Origin: Phlegmacium glaucopus
Taxonomy: Eukaryota > Basidiomycota > Agaricomycetes > Agaricales > Cortinariaceae
DNA: 64,000 nt
Direction: 5' to 3'
Assembly (NCBI GenBank): GCA_015039465.1
Contig: MU130012.1
Location: 43,689-107,688 of the forward strand
Positions 1 to 53,926 of this stretch are shown here, piece after piece. The position numbers and the translations under genes are program-made. The notes under the pieces were generated by a model. It searched no databases, was not told the origin of the DNA, and worked only from the letters and a program-made list of their open reading frames with translations. Numbering within the stretch: position 1 is the first letter of the stretch; each line of letters starts with the position of its first letter.

Positions 1-840
1 AAAAGTAAAATTCAAAATAAAAGATTTTAATGTGGAATAAATATTTATATAGGATTTTCAACTCCGGTCTTCAAACATCATAACCACAATATTGGTACTG
101 TAGTGATTATCGTTTGTACTTTTCTTTTTTATGATAACAATCCATTGTGAGTCAAAAGGTAGGTTAGTCAGGTTGAGGACTGAAAGTCAGAAAGTGTACT
201 TGTGGGTCTGGGTTACTCGAAGTATGGGTTCGGGTTTGGATTAAGGTTTTGACATTTAAGGTGGAGTGGTTGTTTGAATCAAGGGGAGAGTAAAGATGAG
301 AAGTAAAAGTAAACCGGGGTTGAAAGTGGGCTCATGGACTTGTACTGGTCAAGTCGGGTTTGAGATTTAGTAAAAAATATTTTCCAGATTTAACCAATGG
401 AGAATAAGGTCTATTTAGTCACTTTCCATTTTGATTATTATAATTATTACTTTATGTTTGAACAGTAAAAAGTAAATAAGACCATAACATGGTGAATAGT
501 AAAATAATAAAAGTGTACTGTGATAAACTAATAAATAAAAGGTATTGAGGTAATAGAGATATAATCATAAATTTAGGGGGGAGTGAAATCGTCCCTAGGA
601 ATAGGAAAGGAGAAACCTAGGAGACGATCCACTGTTGATATTTAACCTAAGAACGTTATACTCATATAATTATTGTTCCATTTGGACTTCAATATTTCAT
701 TTACTCTGTACAATAACTAATACATGATACGGTCTGGTTTCTTACTACATGAAGACTAACCTTTATATATCACAACCACTGAACTTATTTATAAAAGTAA
801 TATCTATGTCCATGTCACACAGTAAATTGTACATTTTATT

Positions 841-1168
841 CCATATCCGTTAGGTGTGAGTAGGTGACAGTGTACTGGTTTGCACTATTTTTCACTGTTA
901 TCAGTTCTATAACTCTATCTTTAACAACCTGATGGAAATTATTTTTATACCGACGCGGTTATTTAAAACTTAAACTAAAGTCTAAAAAACCGCCTTTCTC
1001 TAAAAAATAAAAACTCGACACCATCAAAGATAGAGTTATATTTCCAAGTTTCTGGTTTTTTTTGGTAGTACCTGTGCACTAAGTTAATTATGACGGTCAC
1101 GAGATGTTGAATTTACAGTGTAGTAACAGTGCAGTCGACTGTCACCTACTCACACCTAACGGATATGG
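841..1168. repeat. Foldback/MITE-like element with 31-bp inverted repeats
   Basis: Positions 841-871 (beginning CCATATCCGTTAGGTGTGAG) and 1138-1168 are perfect inverted repeats. A second inner pair, 909-922 and 1026-1039, is also perfectly inverted, so the 328-bp unit can fold into a long interrupted hairpin. No transposase fits inside. The flanks do not give a clean target-site duplication. The element lies inside the complement-only block; inverted symmetry survives complementing, so the structure can be seen either way. Confidence 0.7.
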
Positions 1169-1421
1169 AATTCATCTATAGAATGAATTCATAAACGGAA
1201 CCCTATTTCACCAAGTCTTGGTCAAGCTTGACCAAGTCTTGACCAAGAGTCTAAAGACCGGTTAGGTCTTGGTCTTGGTCTTGGTCTACCGACCCCCACT
1301 TGGTCTTGGTCTTGGCTTGGTCTTGGCGCCAAGCCAAGTCTTGACTTGAAGCCGTAGAGATCTTCATAGTTCGTAAGTAGTCGCTCCCGGTCTCCTAATA
1401 GGTAACAGCACGTAACGTTTT

Positions 1422-2318
1422 AGATATATCTTACCCTACAGGCAGATATATCTTACCCTGTAGCGCGGACCCTTACAGCCCCCATAGTTACTACGGCCTA
1501 AATAAAAATTCGTAAACATTATAAAAACTATTAACCAGTCGACGAGGGTGGGTAGCAGGGTAATATGACAATCGGGTCACAGTGCTTACAGTGTAACTAC
1601 TGTTTCGAGACGGAAAAAGCCAGTTGAGACGGTTAGACGACTACGACTATACTATTGTCGAGAAGGAAAGAAAGGAGGTGAGGAGTGTCAACAAGACCCC
1701 GAGACAAGTTTTCGGGGAGAAGGAGATATGAGAATTCTCTGGGTCTAGGGTCCCAATTCCCTCACACACTCCCACTAATAGGGATCGGGAACGTGTAACT
1801 TGTCTCGGAAATGTCCCTGGATTTGTGACAACTTCACAATCGACATCATATCAAAAAGACATAGGGGACCGTAACCCACCGGGTGAACCCACTTATGGCG
1901 ACCCTTCCAACTGACAATCATCAGAAGTGGACCCTGTTGGCAAGCCTGGGACCCAATCACATCAAACCATCAATCATTTTTTTGTTTTTTTTCATCTTAT
2001 CATCGTCACAGTTCACCGACAACTGAACTTGACGAAGTAGTAAGGGTCGAGAAGGAGAAAAGTCCAATGAGTCGACGAACCTTTCTGTCTCGTAAGACAT
2101 CCTTTAAGGAGGTAAAGTTAAAAAAAGACAAAAAAAAAAAATTTTTTTTATTTTAGTTTTACATTCAAAAAATTAACTAACTTAAAAAAAGAAAAAATTT
2201 TTTTTGGAAATTTTTTTACATACAAAAAACAACTAACTTATAATTAACTTATAATTAATAATAGTAATATGTCCCTAGTTTGTGTAGGTAGATGAGGTTT
2301 TCTGTAGTCTTACCGACT
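1422..2318. repeat. Helitron 5' end with a doubled terminus, visible only in the plain complement
   Basis: In the plain complement this stretch carries the same 5' end as the Helitron at 28510. The terminal motif TCTATATAGAATGGGA occurs twice in tandem, starting at 1422 and 1444, followed by the shared non-coding leader. Similarity stops at 2318, just inside the first coding exon of the element (after the codons for Met-Ala), so this is a 5' fragment. The doubled terminus suggests insertion of one copy beside another, or terminal duplication. Because the polarity is wrong as deposited, strand is left undefined. Confidence 0.75.
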
Positions 2319-2540
2319 ATTCTTGTCTAATTGGTGATATCCTAACAAAAGTCTATTTTTAACTGGTTCTTATGGTTCAAACTGGTTCTGAACCAGAACC
2401 GAACCAAGAGAACCGGTTCTGTTGGTTCGGTTCTGGTTCTGGTTCTGGTTCTAGTTTTCCTAAGTGGTTCTGGTTCTGGTTCTGAGAAAATGGGTCCCGA
2501 ACCGAACCGAACTGAACTTCGGCATCCCTAGATACTTCTT
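2319..2540. repeat. GGTTC/GAACC-rich degenerate repeat and polarity switch
   Basis: This stretch is built from variants of GGTTCTGGTTC and GAACCAGAACC. It contains, in normal polarity, the phrase GAACTGAACTTCGGCATC (about 2511-2528), which is also obtained from 1330-1350 but only after plain complementing. The change in polarity therefore falls between 2318, the last complement-only match, and about 2355. No coding sequence is credible; the short ORFs are low-complexity artefacts. Confidence 0.6.
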
Positions 2541-21223: not shown

Positions 21224-21787
21224 TCAGCGTTCAACGAAGTTGGGGGCAGGGAGACCGTGGCTCATGAGAAGTTGTTTCATCATAAGAGCCCTCTCTCTCC
21301 AGACGTCCTTTTCCTTGCTAAGTCGTTGCACGTCATCTTGGAGTTGTTGCATTTGCTCCAATTTGCGTTTTCGACTCTTGCGCGCAGCAAGGGTGTTTTG
21401 ACGTCGACGCCAATCAATCTTTTCCTGTTCTGTTGCATCTTCGGGTAGAGGACCCTCTGGACCCTCTTCGCCATCGGAGTATGCATGAGAACGTGGACGC
21501 GCTTTGGAGGTCGGAATAGCAGACGATCTCTGAGTCCTCGGTGGGCCGGGTGGGGTTCTACTCCCTCGTTGGGTATGCTCCTCGGATTGTTGAAAATGCC
21601 CTACAATATGGTTTGTTTTGTATAGATCGAGTGATGGATGTTCTCGAGGGAGGAATCCCAGCATGGACTCAGAAGAAATTGATCTAGAATGAGATCCAGA
21701 AAACGCAGTGGCCATCTCGGTGGTATCAAATGACGAAGAAAGGTGGTAAAAATCGCTGTCGGAATGGTCGACTCTAGGTTGCTGCAT
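21224..21787 (-). CDS. bZIP transcription factor, GCN4-like
   Basis: Nuclear DNA-binding protein of 187 residues. The basic region lies at about residues 126-142 with the signature NTLAARKSR (131-139), followed by a leucine zipper of about five heptads. The d positions are L149, L156, W163 and M170, so the zipper has two classical leucines followed by Trp and Met. In GCN4-type factors this region binds TGACTCA as a dimer and controls amino-acid starvation or stress genes. The N-terminal 120 residues are Ser/Pro-rich and probably regulatory. The start at 21787 is the first ATG of the open frame; an upstream exon cannot be excluded. Confidence 0.85.
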   Translation of the reverse strand: MQQPRVDHSDSDFYHLSSSFDTTEMATAFSGSHSRSISSESMLGFLPREHPSLDLYKTNHIVGHFQQSEEHTQRGSRTPPGPPRTQRSSAIPTSKARPRSHAYSDGEEGPEGPLPEDATEQEKIDWRRRQNTLAARKSRKRKLEQMQQLQDDVQRLSKEKDVWRERALMMKQLLMSHGLPAPNFVER

Positions 21788-28509: not shown

Positions 28510-29324
28510 TCTATCTATATAGAATGGGATGTCGCGCCTGGGAACGTCGGGGGTATCAATGATGCCGGATTTATTTCTAAGGATTTGTAATAATTTTGAT
28601 AATTGGTCAGCCGCTCCCACACCTTCGTCCCATTATACTGTTAGCCCAGTGTCACGAACGTCACATTGATGACAAAGCTCTGCCTTTTTCGGTCAACTCT
28701 GCCAATCTGCTGATGCTGATATGATAACAGCTCTTCCTTTCTTTCCTCCACTCCTCACAGTTGTTCTGGGGCTCTGTTCAAAAGCCCCTCTTCCTCTATA
28801 CTCTTGAGAGACCCAGATCCCAGGGTTAAGGGAGTGTGTGAGGGTGATTATCCCTAGCCCTTGCACATTAAACAGAGCCTTTACAGGGACCTAAACACTG
28901 TTGAAGTGTTAGCTGTAGTATAGTTTTTCTGTATCCCCTGGCATTGGGTGGCCCACTTGGGTGAATACCGCTGGGAAGGTTGACTGTTAGTAGTCTTCAC
29001 CTGGGACAACCGTTCGGACCCTGGGTTAGTGTAGTTTGGTAGTTAGTAAAAAAACAAAAAAAAGTAGAATAGTAGCAGTGTCAAGTGGCTGTTGACTTGA
29101 ACTGCTTCATCATTCCCAGCTCTTCCTCTTTTCAGGTTACTCAGCTGCTTGGAAAGACAGAGCAATCTGTAGGAAATTCCTCCATTTCAACTTTTTTCTT
29201 TTTTTAAAAAAAAAAACCTTTAAAAAAATGTATGTTTTTTGTTGATTGAATATTAATAATTGAATATTAATTATTATTATTATACAGGGATCAAACACAT
29301 CCATCTACTCCAGAAGACATCAGA

Positions 29325-32300
29325 ATGGCTGAGTCAGATGCTATGTATGTGTTTTATTTCAATCTTTAACTTTTTTAAAATTTTAATTAATATTAATTTT
29401 TATAGGGATAGAGACCAAACACCTCAAACTACCCCAGAACGAGTTGCAAAAAACATGCTTATGCAAATCGAAATCATATCAGCGTGATCAAAGGTTTCTT
29501 GAGAGTCCTGAATATCAAAGAATTCCTACTGCACCTGCACCTGCACCTATCCCTCCTCCCTTTATTGTTCCTGCTGCTCCTTCTACACATTATTCCCATC
29601 TTCCTCCTGCTTTAGCTGCAGCATATGATGCATTGCCTCCTTTTCCCCAGCGTGGTAGAGGTAGAGGTAGAGGTAGAGGTAGAGGTCATGCTCCTGATTT
29701 GGCTCCAGCATTTGCTCCATTGCCTGCCAGAGGTAGAGCCAGAGGTAGAGGTAGACGTCATGCCCCTGCTCCTGCTCCTGCTCCTGTTCCTGCTCCTGTT
29801 CCTGCCCCTGTTCCATTGCCATTTCATGAACTTGCAGTTCAANNNNNNNNNNNNNNNNNNNNNNNNNNNNNNNNNNNNNNNNNNNNNNNNNNNNNNNNNN
29901 NNNNNNNNNNNNNNNNNNNNNNNNNNNNNNNNNNNNNNNNNNNNNNNNNNNNNNNNNNNNNNNNNNNNNNNNNNNNNNNNNNNNNNNNNNNNNNNNNNNN
30001 NNNNNNNNNNNNNNNNNNNNNNNNNNNNNNNNNNNNNNNNNNNNNNNNNNNNNNNNNNNNNNNNNNNNNNNNNNNNNNNNNNNNNNNNNNNNNNNNNNNN
30101 NNNNNNNNNNNNNNNNNNNNNNNNNNNNNNNNNNNNATTTATGGGAAAGACAGATCAGATCAGAAAATGTTACCAATAATACATCTAAAAATGTAACCAA
30201 TAATACATCTAGACACGATATTCAAATATATCAGAGTCAGATGGTTAATGATAATCTTCTGCACATCTCCCATATCTACCCCCTCCTCCATCACCTCCAT
30301 CGCATCCTCCATCTCCATCTCCACCTTCATCACAATCTCCATCACCTCCTCCTGTATCCAGAGGAGGCTGGTGCTATAAATAGAAATAGGAATAGAGATC
30401 CGTCGCCATGCCAGAAATAGAAATAGAATCAGGAATAGAGATGCCAGGACTCCCTATCATGAACCTGTTGCTGGAAGACATTCTTTGGGACCTATGACTG
30501 TGGAGTGTCCTCACTGCCATGCACTCCATTTTGATGCTGAAAAACTCTCAACTTCTAGAGTCAATCAACCAAAATTTGGATTGTGTTGTCTTAGTGGCCA
30601 GGTCCAACTTCCTCCATTTCCTCCTGCTCCTAGACAACTCAGAGAACTCTTCGATGGTACAAACTTGCACAGTCAGGAATTTAAAACAAATATTCGCCAG
30701 TACAAACTCTTGCATTCGCATTCACTTCCCTGGGTGTTAAGGTTGATCATGCTGTTACTGCAGGGTCAGGTCCTTATTCATTTAGGATCAGTGGTGAACT
30801 TCATCACCTTTCAGGTGCACTCCTTCCCACCGATGGAAATGCTCCAGTCTTTGCCCAGATTTATATTCATGATCCACAAGAACAGTTGGCTCAGAGGGAA
30901 CACAATAATAGGAATTTAAATCGGACTATTATGACCATCATCCAAGGAGTCCTCAATAATTCTCATCCCTATGTCAACCTTTATAAACAGGCATTTCAGA
31001 TAATGAGAGAGAAGCCTGCAGAGGAGCATCATACTGTAGCTATTCGTCTTCGTGCAGAACGCAATCAGGATCTTAGACGTTATAACTTGCCTACTGCTAA
31101 TGATGAGGTTGCTGCTATTATTCCTGGAGATGGTTCAGAGGACCGTGCAGATCACCGTGATATTGTTCTCAGACTCAAGGCTGGAGGTCTTCGAAGGATA
31201 AGTCATCTACATCCTTCTTATTCTACCCTTCATTATGTCTTGCTCTTTCCTAATGGTGAAGATGGCTGGCATCCCAATATTCCTGCTCACATTGGAGCTT
31301 CTGGGAGGCGTCGAGCACAAAATGTTACACAGCGCTGTTATCATGCATACAGATTGCATTCCAGACTTCGAGAGATACCATTATTGCAATGGGGAGGAAA
31401 TCTCTTTCAGCAATATGTGGTGGATGCATGGGCTGCTGTGGAACAAAGTACATTAAACTGGATAAAGCATCATCAAAAGGACCTACGAGCAGAGGTGTAC
31501 TCTGGACTTCGAGATGCTGTGCTGGGTGATAGAGATAACAATATAAATCTGGCAGAACATGGAAGACGTATTATTCTTCCTTCCAGCTTTATAGGCAGTG
31601 AACGTCATATGATGCAGCTATTTCAAGATTCTATGGCCATTTGCCGTACTTTTCGCAAGCCTGACATCTTCCTCACTATGACTGCCAATCCCAACTGGCC
31701 AGAAATACAAAATCAGCTATTGGAGGAAGTCCCTCCACGTGCAGGTGCTAACCATCGGAGAAGAAAACAGAAGGCTTCAGATCGTCCTGACATTGTAGCA
31801 CGTGTTTTTGAGGAGAAAAAGAAAGCTTTGTTGAAGGACATAGATGATGGAGCATTTGGAAAAGTTCTTGCAATGGTTTACACTATCGAATTCCAGAAAC
31901 GTGGCCTTCCCCACATGCACCTCCTCCTTTTCCTTCATCCAGATGACAAAATTCATGATGCAGCCCAAGTCGACTCTATTGTCTCTGCTCAGATTCCAGA
32001 TCCTGAGCTCCATCCTCTTCTATATGAGACTGTCACCACCTGCATGCTTCATGGACCCTGTGGAGTTGAGAAACCCGGTGCACCTTGCATGGTTGCTTAC
32101 AAATGCAGCAAGCATTACCCTAAGGAGTTTAGTGATCATACTATAATGGGTGAAAATGGTTATCCAAAGTATGCCAGGCCTGATAATGGACGTGTGGTTG
32201 TGAAAAATGGTCACACATATGACAACAGAGATGTCATTCCATACAATCCTTATTTTTCTGCCAAGTAAGTATTATTCTCTTGATTTTTTTTAAAATTTAT

Positions 32301-34730
32301 TAATTGATTGCCAGACATAATTGTCATATCAATGTTGAAATCTGTGCTACTGTTGAAGCTGTCAGGTACATTCACAAGTACATCTACAAAGGCCACGACC
32401 GCACAACCCTGGAGTTTCGTGATGACCAGAATCGTGATGAAGTCAAGGAGTACTTGGATGCACGCTACATTGGATCAGTTGAAAGCTGCTATCATATCTT
32501 TGAATTTGTCATGCATGCTGAAAAACCCACTGTTTACCGACTTCCCGTTCATTTGGAAGATCAGCAATTGGTGTACTTTGGTCCAGATGACAATGCTGAT
32601 CAGGTTGTGGAGAGGGGTGAAACCAGGGACACTGCTCTTACTGCTTGATTTAAAATCAATGAATCCAATCCTGACGCCAGAAACACCACTTATCAGAACT
32701 TTCCTCAGACTTGGGTATATGAGACAAAGACAAAGAAGTGGAAGCCTAGAGAGAGAGGATATGCAATTGGTCGGCTGTATTTTGCTTCACCATCTTCAGG
32801 GGAGCGGATTTATCTTAGAACCCTTCTTACTGTGGTTCCAGGTGCCACTTCCTTTGCTCATTTACACACAGTCAATGGTATCCAATATGTCACTTTCAAA
32901 GAGGCATGCAATGCTCTTGGTTTGCTGGAGAATGATCAGGAGTGGAGACTGTGTTTACAAGAGGCAGGAGAGATGCAGACAGGTTATACCCTTAGGATGC
33001 TCTTTGCTACCATTCTCTTCCACTGCAACCCTACTTCACCAGGAGTTCTCTGGAATGACTTTAAACATGATATTTGTATTGATCTCTTGGCGAGACTCAC
33101 ACATATCTATGGATATGAGAATCGACAATTTACTGAGGATGAAGTGTATGACTATGGCCTTCATCTGATTGATCATATTCTTCAGACTTGGGGAAAGCAG
33201 CTCAGAGATTTTGCAGATATGCCACAAGTTACTGGCAATTGGGGTGCAGTGGGTGGAAACAGACTTCTTAATGAGCAGCTTGATTATAACATTGAAGAGA
33301 TGACTGCCAGGATCACAGCCAATACTGCTCTGTTCAACAACAGACAGAGGGCAGTATATGATGCAGTGATGGAGTCTGTTGGCAACAATAATAGCAAAAT
33401 GTTCTTTTTGCACAGTGCAGGTGGTTGTGGAAAAACATTTGTCTGTAATACGATTGCTGCTGCTGTGCGTGCTCAAGAAAAAATAGCTCTTTGTGTTGCA
33501 TCATCAGGCATAGCATCACTTCTTCTTGAAGGTGGCAGAACTGCTCACTCCAGTTTCAAAATTCCTATTCAAATCAACAACACCTCATTCTGCAGTATTG
33601 GCCGGAATTCACATATGTTCCAAGTTATCCAGCAAACATCAATTATTACCCGGGATGAAGTGCCAATGCAACACAAGCATGTGATTGATGCTGTGGATAG
33701 AACACTTCGGGATGTTCTTGGTATCGATGCTCCATTTGGTGGAATCACTGTTTTGTTTGGTGGTGACTTTAGACAAACACTTCCAGTGATCCCTCATGGC
33801 AGTAGACAGCAGGTTGTGGCAGCATCTATCAGACGAAGCCCACTTTGGCAGAATGTTGAAATTCATTACCTTCAAGAGAATATGTGTCTCGAACAATCTC
33901 CAGAGATGCAGGAGTTTGCAAATTGGCTGCTAAATGTTGGTGGAGGTACTGGACTGGATGAGTCTGACACGATTGAGATTCCACAGGGCATCATCTGCCC
34001 TGACTATTCGATTAACTCCTTGGTGGAAGAAGTTTATCCTGGAATTGAGGATGGTGAGAAATCAGACCAGTACTTCTTGGACAGATGCATTCTTGCTTGC
34101 AAAAATGATAGTGTTCAGGATTTGAATGAAGAGATATTGAATCGTTTCCCTGGAGAAGAACATGTGCTATTGAGTGCAGACTCTGTGGAGTTGTCGGATG
34201 AAGGGATGAATGAGTTGCAGCCATATTCACCAGAGTATCTGAATTTATTGGTCTCAAGTTCACTTCCACTTGCACATCTTAAACTGAAAGTTGGATGTCC
34301 AGTTATGCTGCTTCGAAATTTGGATGCTTCAAAAGGACTTTGCAATGGGACAAGGTTAAGGGTACTGGAAATCAGAGGAAGAGTGCTAAAATGTAGAATC
34401 ATGAGTGGAGATGAATGATTTGCTGGAAAAGTAGTGTTTATCCCACGGATTACATTGTCACCATCTGCAGAGGATTTGGCGATTCCACTTCGACGACGAC
34501 AATTTCCAATTCGACTTGCATTTGCTATGACAGTGAACAAGAGTCAAGGGCAGTCATTGAAGCATGTAGGATTAGATTTACGGTCTCCAGTTTTTTCACA
34601 TGGGCAATTGTATGTAGGACTATCTAGATGTACATCAGGAAACCGATTAAAGGTACTACTAAAAGAAGAGTCAGGAGGAAGAACAGCGAATGTAGTATAC
34701 AAAGAAATACTTACTGGATTGCAATTGTAA
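29325..34730 (+). pseudogene. Helitron Rep/helicase, broken by two stops and two frameshifts
   Basis: Encodes the Helitron initiator-helicase. Exon 1 is 29325-29344, with a 61-bp intron to 29405. Low-complexity RG-rich and AP-rich tracts (29640-29830) precede the gap. After the gap come a CPHC zinc-finger-like segment (about 30506), the Rep domain with the HUH-type motif GLPHMHLLLFL (about 31903) and the catalytic tyrosine motif KYIYKG (about 32376-32393), reached across a 50-bp intron (32265-32314). The Pif1-like helicase follows, with Walker A AGGCGKT (about 33418) and Walker B GGDFRQTLPVI (about 33759), and a C-terminal [13 protein letters not shown] motif. Breaks: an extra A in an A run near 29450, a one-base shift near 30705, and in-frame TGA at 32646-32648 and 34416-34418. 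The core motifs survive, so the damage is recent or partly sequencing error. Confidence 0.85.
29843..30136. other. Assembly gap (294 N)
   Basis: A run of unknown bases within the N-terminal coding part of the Helitron protein, directly after a repetitive Ala/Pro/Arg/Gly-coding tract that probably caused the assembly break. Any ORF drawn through it is unreliable. Confidence 0.99.
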
Positions 34731-34889
34731 TGATAAGATTTGTTGATTCTGTTTTTTGAGAGTGATATAAGAGTGTTCACTGTTAGGATCTAAGACTGAG
34801 TACACTGTTGTGATGCAGCCAGGGGTCCAGGGGGCGGAGCCTCCGGCAAGCCCTGAATCCGTGCTGGAGGTCAGCAAAGCGGAGCGGCA

Positions 34890-40623: not shown

Positions 40624-41040
40624 ATGTTGGTTGGTCCAGATCAGGATTGGGAGTTTATCCAAAATTTGGGAGTTTGGTCAGGGCCAAACATAACCAATAA
40701 TTGGGTCAAATCCAGGCATACTAGCAGAAGATCCAAAGTTAATAAAATTATAAGTATTGACTACAAATAACTCACCTAGCAGGAGATCCAAGGAGGAAAG
40801 GATGGGGATCTCTGCTAGGATGGGAAAGTATTTAAATATGAATATGGACATAATGGACATATGAAAATAAATAAATAATGGTGTGATAATAAAATAATTA
40901 AAATGTCATATGAGAATAAATAAAATAACAAGTCAAAGTTCCATTTGGGTTTGGGTCTGAATGAAAGTTGGAAGTAAAGAGAGTCAGGACCAGGCCTGAA
41001 TGAAGGTTGGGAGAGGAGATGTTAAGGTTGACAGTGGGGT
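40624..41040. repeat. Repeat whose minus strand matches the plain complement of part of 1-650
   Basis: The reverse complement of about 40690-40980 contains ATCCTTTCCTCCTTGGATC and TGCTAGGTGA, which are found with small differences when 1-650 is complemented without reversal. Spacer sequence next to the Harbinger right border; no gene. Confidence 0.65.
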
Positions 41041-47445: not shown

Positions 47446-47850
47446 ACTGTGAGACTCAGACTGTGGTAATTTACCATGAAAAATATAGAAATATAGAAAT
47501 GAAGGAAATAGGAACAACAAATGTGGTGATTCTGAAAGGTAGAAAATTACAACATTAATTGTAGGAATCAATTCCTATGATTACTGTGGATATTTGCAAT
47601 AGAAATCAATGTAGTTTTCAAGAAAAAAATTACAACAGTTAAGGTAGGAACTACTGGGGTAAAACACAACAAAAAAAACAATGTTATTTGTAGGAATCAA
47701 TTCCAGTAGTTACTGTAGATATTTACAATAAAAAAGTAATGACATGGGGAGGAAAAATTTACAATGCTTAAAGTAGGAATTTAGTAGGGTAAAATACAAC
47801 TAAAAAGATAAAAAATTATATCATTGCTTCAACTTAGTTTTTTGATTGTA
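47446..47850. other. AT-rich spacer, no gene
   Basis: Contains two similar phrases around AGGAATCAATTCC (47566 and 47692), an old tandem duplication of about 125 bp. Nothing coding is seen. Confidence 0.45.
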
Positions 47851-49077
47851 ATATATACTCTGCCCTCCTGACTAAATAATATATTCTGGCACTTCCTGAA
47901 GGGCTACTACCATGTATTTTATACCAAAATGTTCAGAAAAATGAGGGTAATCCATTGGTAATAAAATAGTGGTGTGACACACCCATCTGATGTGTGCTTT
48001 ATGCACTTTATGTGTATTAATGTTTCAAAAATACTCATATTCCCATGCCCATAATATGGTTAGATTCCCCCCAATGTGTAGCTTTCTGTTACATTCCATT
48101 ATACATGACTCTGGTCCAGCTCCATTGGAGTTGTCTCCAGTACTCCATATTCCATTCCAGTACCTTCCCTTGTATCCTGATCTACTCTTCCTTCATCCAA
48201 CTCCGAGACTTCTCCATATCATTCCAGCTCTTCCAATGATACTCCAAACCCATTGCCACATCTTTGCCATAACAACTACTTCTTTGTCATCACTTTCCCA
48301 TTATCAGTCAGCACACCCGCTATGGATTATTCACCCAAGAATGCAGCACTTTCCGGGAGCAGAATGCAGCACTTTATAATTATCCTTTATATTTCGGTTG
48401 CTATTCCTTTTACTATTTAAGTACTTGAAACTTGTATGTTTTCCTCAGTTCAAATATCATCTTAGTTTCCTCTCCTTGTTCATCCTCTAAGTCACTGAGG
48501 TCTTCCGTCTTTCTGTTCTCTTCCAGTTCTGAAATCAGGACATTGTAGGAGCTGGGCAGCACAGCACATACGCTGAGGCCAAAGTCCTTTCTGTTACTTG
48601 TTCTGGTTCTGTTCTGTCCGATCCAGAGTTACTCCGATGTTACCCCTTTGTCTAAACTTAACACTAAGTCACTGAGGTCTTCCATCTTTCCATTCTCTTC
48701 CGGTTCCGAAATCAGGACATTATAGGAGCTGGGCAGCACAGCACATACGCTGAGGCCAAAGTCCTTTCTGTTACTTGTTCCAGTTCTGTTCCATCTGTTC
48801 CAGAGTTACTCCGATGTTACCCCTTTGTCTAAACTTAACACTTTCTAACAATATACAATATGTCATGGTAGGCATATTTATAAGCATAGATCACATCATT
48901 TTACTGGATATTTTGCACTATTTCACATATAACACATATAAGAGTGCGTTTAACATCACTATTTTATTACCAATGGATTCTTCTCATTTTTCTTCTCATT
49001 TTGGTATAAAATACATGGTAGTAGCCCTTCAGGAAGTGCCAGAATATATTATTTAGTCAGGAGAGAAGGGTATATAT
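47851..49077. mobile_element. 1.2-kb element with inverted ends of about 110-125 bp
   Basis: The left end (47851 to about 47976) and right end (about 48952-49077) are inverted copies of each other. They share TGACTAAATAATATATTCTGG and CCTGAAGGGCTACTACCATG in opposite orientation. The interior holds the paralogue of the repeat that hosts the Helitron, including the empty Helitron site at 48103/48104. No transposase is present; it could be a non-autonomous long-TIR element. Confidence 0.7.
48488..48842 (+). repeat. Tandem duplication, two units of about 177 bp
   Basis: AAGTCACTGAGGTCTTCC begins both units (about 48489 and 48666) and both finish with CCCCTTTGTCTAAACTTAAC. They differ at scattered positions, so the duplication is not very recent. 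The single-copy relative is at about 27970-28150 in inverse orientation. Confidence 0.8.
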
Positions 49078-52690: not shown

Positions 52691-53926
52691 TTATTCAATC
52701 TCTCTCAAACTCTTAAGACAATACCAAGAGATGACCACTGTCGGTTCAAAAAGTCCTCTGTTCATTTTGAATGCTGCTTTCCACTCGTCACCTTTCTTGA
52801 TCCGGACATTGTTGTAACCTCTGAGGACATCGAACTTGGTGAAACAAGTTGCGCCTTTCAGTTTGTCCATAATTTCGGAGATCAAAGGTAGAGGGTAAGC
52901 ATTTTTGACTGTGTGTTCATTCAGGTATCGGTAATCTTGGCAAGGTCGTAACTTTCCATCTTTCTTGGAGACGAAGAAGAAAGGAGATGCCATCAGTGAT
53001 TTCGATTTTCGAATGTATCGTCGTTCGAGGTTTTCTTTGAGGAATTTGTCCAGTTCAATTTGTTCTTCCGGGGTGAGATTGTAATTCTTAAAGGATTTTG
53101 GTTCAAATCCAGGTTTCATCTCGATTTTGTGATCCCAGGGCTGTTTGTCAGGAAATCTGTCTGCTTTCTTTTCGTTGAATACATCAAGGAATTCGTGATA
53201 TTCTTCTGGAGCCAGTTTTTCAACCGGAATATCTTCCTTTTTGTCGTATTTCTGCGCAAGTGTTTGAGATGCAGAGGTTTTTGCATTGATCCATATGTCG
53301 TCATCCATTTCGCCAGTAATAAAAGCAACGAGTAATGATAGTTCATCATTGTCGAGGGGGTTCAGTGTAGAATTCATGTATTCTTCTTCGTCATCTTCAT
53401 CTGTAACTGAAGATTTTGGGTACTTCAGGAATTCTTGTTTCGGGGTGTCCATATTCATTTTTCGCTTAAAGAAGCGCCGTTTGCCAGTGTCCATTTCTTC
53501 GTTTCTCCAGGAGAATGCTCCGGTTTTCCAATTGATTTCCGGGTTGGTTTCTTGTAACCAAGGGAATCCAAGGATAATCTTCTGCTTTCCAAGTCCTGTG
53601 ACTAAGAGTCGTTCCATTTTCCATTGTCCGTTTACAATAAGATCAAGATCAATGAATGTCTTGATAGTTCCGCGTTTGTTTGGTGTTCCATCTACGTTAA
53701 AGACCTTCAGTGGTTCATCCAGTTTTTCGATTTTGAATCCAGTTTTTCTTGCGTAATTCTGGTCAATAAACTTTCCTCCAGCTCCAGTGTCTATGAGTCC
53801 TTGGGTTTCGATGTCTTCCTTACTCGATGTCTGGTCTACAATAATGATTGGAACAGAGATTGAATTGTTCGTTATTGTAGCACTACAGACAGAGTAAATA
53901 TCTAGACTGGGAGAGACTTGCATCAA
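52691..53926 (-). pseudogene. Truncated pol (protease and partial reverse transcriptase) of the gypsy-type element
   Basis: 411 residues in the -1 frame relative to gag. The protease motif LIDTGAGGKF has its active-site DTG at residues 46-48. Reverse transcriptase begins around residue 270, with MASPFFFVSKKDGKLRPCQ and the motif-A region KFDVLRGYNN carrying the first catalytic Asp. It ends right after RGLFEPTVV; the remaining residues belong to foreign sequence. Without YxDD it cannot be an active polymerase. Confidence 0.85.

Follow-up and report, generated by a model that had tools for sequence, protein, structure and literature searches.

A block of mushroom repeat DNA in reversed letter order at a scaffold gap edge, almost certainly an assembly artefact

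The window, by which we mean the whole stretch of 64,000 bases analysed here, corresponds to C14:43689-107688, a part of contig C14 in a 60.5 Mb assembly of 259 contigs. Its proteins match those of agaric mushrooms, with Hebeloma cylindrosporum giving the best named match (75%), and a search of the window against Rfam returned zero families at the gathering score. An N run of 7,197 bases occupies C14:36492-43688, and the window begins directly after this gap. Further downstream, Helitron genes at 30886-34418 carry the domains Helitron_like_N and PIF1 helicase with a 2B domain; they belong to a locus at ~27.6-35 kb that contains the partner of the block described below, and a gap within the window itself, 294 Ns at 29843-30136, sits upstream of them. 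The genes are embedded in CpG-depleted sequence at ~27.6-52.9 kb. The window also holds a bZIP frame (21224-21787), which also occurs, 100% identical, on a 389,274-base contig, two tandem repeats of two copies each (47555-47806, 129 bases, 75%; 48487-48842, 177 bases, 93%), and part of a retroelement (52691-53926; domains RVP_2 and RVT_1), whose CpG value of 0.88 is near normal, unlike that of the adjacent CpG-poor repeats. The features on which the argument depends are as follows.

1..2318, no strand: the whole block, reading as a string reversed in place; its left side adjoins the N gap C14:36492-43688
1..841, no strand: piece of a ~1.27-kb high-copy repeat, reversed; 98.9% match of its plain complement to C14:6147-6984
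838..1171, no strand: putative MITE-like insert, 334 bases, with 40-base inverted ends (838-877 and 1132-1171) that are 95% identical
1170..1340, no strand: continuation of the ~1.27-kb repeat, reversed; plain complement matches C14:6981-7151 at 97.7%
1444..2318, no strand: reversed copy of the repeat that lies upstream of the Helitron genes in the window; its plain complement is 90.5% identical to 28514-29332
2319..2531, plus strand: continuation of the ~1.27-kb repeat in normal polarity; as written, it matches the minus strand of C14:5934-6146 at 97.2%
28514..29332, plus strand: complement partner of 1444-2318 cited by the earlier note, in normal polarity
29843..30136, no strand: N gap, 294 bases
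31829..34731, plus strand: Helitron helicase region in normal polarity, with reversed partial copies elsewhere

The intact reference copy of the ~1.27-kb repeat lies outside the window, at C14:5934-7200. The segment 838-1171 is missing from this copy and from that on C105, and its anatomy suggests a MITE-like insert. Reversed copies of parts of the helicase region 31829-34731 border gaps on C132, C171 and C145; others, on C206 and C129, have no N gap in the sampled flank.

When the block was compared by BLAST with the window in four readings, a long match appeared under plain complement only. The pairing of complemented 1444-2318 with 28514-29332 that the earlier note had reported is real (90.525% over 876 columns, E=0), and a global alignment gives 15 mismatches in 879 columns, the remaining differences being indels. 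A second pairing, of 300-650 with the minus strand of 40690-40980, held up in part: 499-633 aligns with 40905-40772 (77.9% over 136 columns, BLAST), while the rest remains unaligned, and a better partner for 1-841 is found outside the window at C14:6147-6984. Against the sampled sequence, with the already recognised reversed blocks masked, the block gives nine plain-complement matches and none as written (E<=1e-10), in keeping with the earlier claim that it relates to other repeats as plain complement only. Neither strand of the block matched this masked set, so the reverse-complement relation that marks a genomic inversion was not seen. As a control on the same set, plain-complement matches were found for 5 of 104 C14 tiles and ordinary repeat matches for 77 of 104. 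Each of the five complement-matching tiles has one partner within ~1.7 kb of a C14 gap, and these partners adjoin the left and right edges of gap 140765 and the left edge of gap 228277, where reversal is itself shown or suggested.

Copies in the block's own polarity, which the earlier note had named as a sign against its reading, do occur elsewhere, for example on C105, C132, C224 and C241, and they do not refute an artefact; the three of these that were examined (C105:794251-795255, C132:267869-268617 and C224:17895-18209) are themselves reversed blocks. The idea that 1-1443 is normal-polarity DNA, based on own-polarity copies elsewhere, was rejected, as the C105 copy (L036) is itself reversed. 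A mirror-like self-similarity of 530-631 was also considered and discarded (self score 204 versus 24 against its own reverse).

The right end of the block reveals the operation involved. The complement of 1-841 corresponds to C14:6147-6984, while 2319-2531 corresponds to the minus strand of C14:5934-6146, and therefore bases 1 and 2319 are adjacent in the real repeat (6147|6146). Reversing the string 1-2318 in place yields exactly this neighbourhood. We compared the 100 bases brought up by the reversal, joined to 2319-2418, with the intact C14 copy: 195 of 200 bases agree, without indels, for a score of 375. The other readings at 2318/2319 score 112 (as written), 114 (complement in place) and 107 (reverse complement in place), all four readings having been scored at the window junction only. 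The alignments to the intact copy and this junction test bear out the block end at 2318/2319 that had been proposed earlier. Judged from these alignments, the operation is an in-place string reversal, and the plain complement is how such a reversal would look against an oppositely oriented copy.

Composition shows the same mirror relation. In the first 2,300 bases the observed/expected ratio is 0.32 for GpC and 0.77 for CpG, and in the repeat-rich region at 27.6-52.9 kb it is 0.09-0.41 for CpG; the GpC depletion of the former is the mirror image of the CpG depletion of the latter. We also trained a 4-mer polarity score, symmetric between strands, on C132 and C224; the value of the block, -75.6, lies under that of every other C14 tile (n=455, same size, gap-free and overlapping; mean 60.5, SD 40.1, minimum -56.1). 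This score is noisy on short or gene-rich stretches, and the alignments were given the weight. The simpler GpC-minus-CpG count, -35 for the block, is equalled or passed by 6 of the 455 overlapping tiles and is hence unexceptional; five tiles pass it, four of them from two regions.

Coding sequence and mutations also make sense once polarity is restored. As written, the reversed stretches L030 and L031 gave no tblastn match (E<=1e-3) to the Helitron helicase of the window, a protein of PIF1 type; once reversed, they are 97.3% and 96.0% identical to it over 528 amino acids. In restored polarity there are 45 changes between CpG and TpG/CpA at 159 CpG sites and 21 changes between GpC and GpT/ApC at 412 GpC sites, counted over seven aligned pairs from among the 14 blocks (10,321 columns), some of which have a reference copy in common. 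Because CpG decay is visible in restored polarity, the copies would have diverged before their letters were reversed. From the sequence, then, ordinary CpG decay in ordinary polarity seems to have preceded the reversal.

The block is not alone. When the block and a reversed piece of Helitron served as queries against the same genome, more copies of this polarity came to light. In all, there are 13 further junctions, spread over C14 and seven more contigs, at which, by alignment coordinates, in-place reversal joins the stretch to its normal flank:

C132, both edges (left and right) of one gap: reversed arms, adjoining Ns
C224: reversed arm, adjoining Ns
C171, L030 (2,903 bases) and L035: reversed arms, adjoining Ns
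C145, L031 (2,552 bases; junction 34696|34697 exact) and L032: reversed arms, adjoining Ns
C14, 200336-201158, 143653-144871 and 139228-140764: reversed arms, adjoining Ns
C206 (L033), C129 (L034) and C105 (L036): reversed stretches with no N gap in the sampled flank

Thus the window block and 10 of the 13 others adjoin Ns, and three of the 13 (L033, L034 and L036) do not. For twelve of the 13 junctions, a normal copy fixes the position to within ~5 bases; at the 200336 junction the two alignments have an overlap of 15, inside which an exact solution lies. The junction at 139228 was located from the opposite arm, once restored, rather than from a normal copy: the two arms of gap C14:140765-143652 have a 216-base stretch in common, which is 100% identical once restored. 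One arm of L033 (917-3241) meets its own flank with single-base precision, at 32656|32655. Across the junction, alignments of the reversed form agree at 197 of 201 columns (C132 right), 193 of 204 (C224) and 180 of 205 (C132 left, where the flank exits the repeat after 63 bases); for these three the reversed reading alone was scored.

Four more loci (L037-L040), with no N gap in the sampled flank, carry a repeat whose polarity is opposite to that of C14:214769-215182. They are putative reversed members, so assigned on account of their minority polarity (39 versus 709 candidates), and whole-locus polarity scores are slightly positive for L038 (0.7) and L039 (1.4). On C120, a single Helitron segment lies in two normal-polarity pieces ~17 kb apart (C120:40753-41131 and C120:57930-58847), which share nine query bases (910-918); a later insertion or an oversized gap may perhaps account for this split.

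How far the phenomenon extends can be gauged on C14, which was sampled over 273,689 of its 374,945 bases, Ns counted in. Five gaps offer ten edges, of which five are reversed, three are normal by alignment and two are normal by polarity score alone. The reversed edges are the right edge of gap 36492, both edges of 140765, the right edge of 196632 and the left edge of 228277, the last of these calls resting on weak matches of 70-79%. A stretch that is filler in our scripts (C14:30001-33999) produced two edge-like rows, which were left out of the count. No reversed material was found at the edges of the window's own gap 29843-30136, by alignment and polarity on the left and by polarity only on the right. 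For one repeat family, first-look searches gave 709 candidates of one polarity and 39 of the opposite one, with 40 and 39 scored respectively, placing the minority at ~5% of the candidates. The 1.27-kb repeat gave 914, of which 40 were scored, and window 1-1443 gave 37; these counts are loose, and the queries compared differ in length and content.

The block is thus reversed in polarity, adjacent to a gap, contiguous with its flank after reversal and one of several such cases. We consider it almost certain that it consists of ordinary mushroom repeat DNA whose letters were written backwards at a gap edge, as an assembly artefact. A processing artefact was also the cause preferred by the earlier note, and gap adjacency, the junction and recurrence support it; deliberate insertion, named there as the alternative, is disfavoured by the recurrence at other gap edges. 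We propose that scaffold gaps were extended at their edges, probably in a gap-filling or contig-extension step, and that the new sequence was written in reversed letter order, with the left and right extension arms each reversed separately. Where a gap stayed open, a reversed arm would adjoin Ns, as 1-2318 does on the right side of the 7.2-kb gap before the window; where a gap was closed, reversed arms would be left within contiguous sequence. The N-free stretches L033, L034 and L036, and the opposite-polarity loci L037-L040, may represent such closed gaps.

A variant of this explanation keeps the artefact and places the reversal in later handling, such as conversion, the merging of gap patches or preparation of a copy, rather than in the gap filler. 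The placed reversed stretches are gap-edge material, as would be expected of a separate patch file that was misapplied, and a second version of the assembly seems to exist, given that the bZIP frame of the window is recorded on a contig 389,274 bases long, versus 374,945 for C14. However, partial extensions at open gaps and separately reversed arms would resemble the output of a gap filler, and we regard later handling as improbable, with a small share of the overall likelihood. Far less plausible is a true cellular rearrangement, by parallel-strand copying or ligation. The relation is indeed present in the sequence and at several loci, but it sits at N gaps, becomes contiguous upon string reversal, affects arms separately and shows CpG decay in restored polarity, and we know of no polymerase or recombinase that makes sequence of reversed polarity; a biological mechanism is unneeded, and there is no sign of DNA laid down in parallel orientation. 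An alteration confined to the window, made as a decoy or through a cutting error, would fit a block that begins at window base 1, but is contradicted by the 13 junctions outside the window and deserves virtually no credence.

Reversal at gap edges matters as a problem of assembly quality and not as biology. Ordinary BLAST fails to pair reversed stretches with their true relatives, and a gene spanning an affected gap edge would end there. Plain-complement BLAST combined with a strand-symmetric k-mer polarity score provides a cheap means of finding the larger blocks. It is unlikely, though a possibility worth bearing in mind, that the reversing step is common to other public assemblies and that many draft genomes have backwards gap edges; if so, similarity searches would be blind to these edges, and statistics of repeats, k-mers and motifs would silently count them.

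A narrow search of the literature found no report of a reversed-letter artefact at gap edges. In the known errors of gap filling, a wrong copy is inserted or repeats are collapsed, but the polarity is correct. Among the closest known relatives of our proposed artefact is the misassembly of filled gaps of the GapFiller or IMAGE type: GapFiller extends contigs from both gap edges and, according to its authors, leaves gaps open mainly in repeated areas, and the two cases have in common extension from each edge and trouble mostly in repeats (PMC3446322). They differ in that here the letter order is reversed, an error that is not described in those parts of the GapFiller paper on which we draw (PMC3446322); GapFiller is cited as an analogy, and we make no claim of its use or fault in this assembly. 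A genomic inversion likewise turns a segment in place, but it gives the reverse complement, whereas the segment here is turned without complementing (107 versus 375 for plain reversal at the window junction). Finally, the Helitron with its Helitron_like_N and PIF1 helicase domains supplies the sequence of several reversed blocks; however, this element was probably merely present at those gap edges, and the reversal would owe nothing to its biology.
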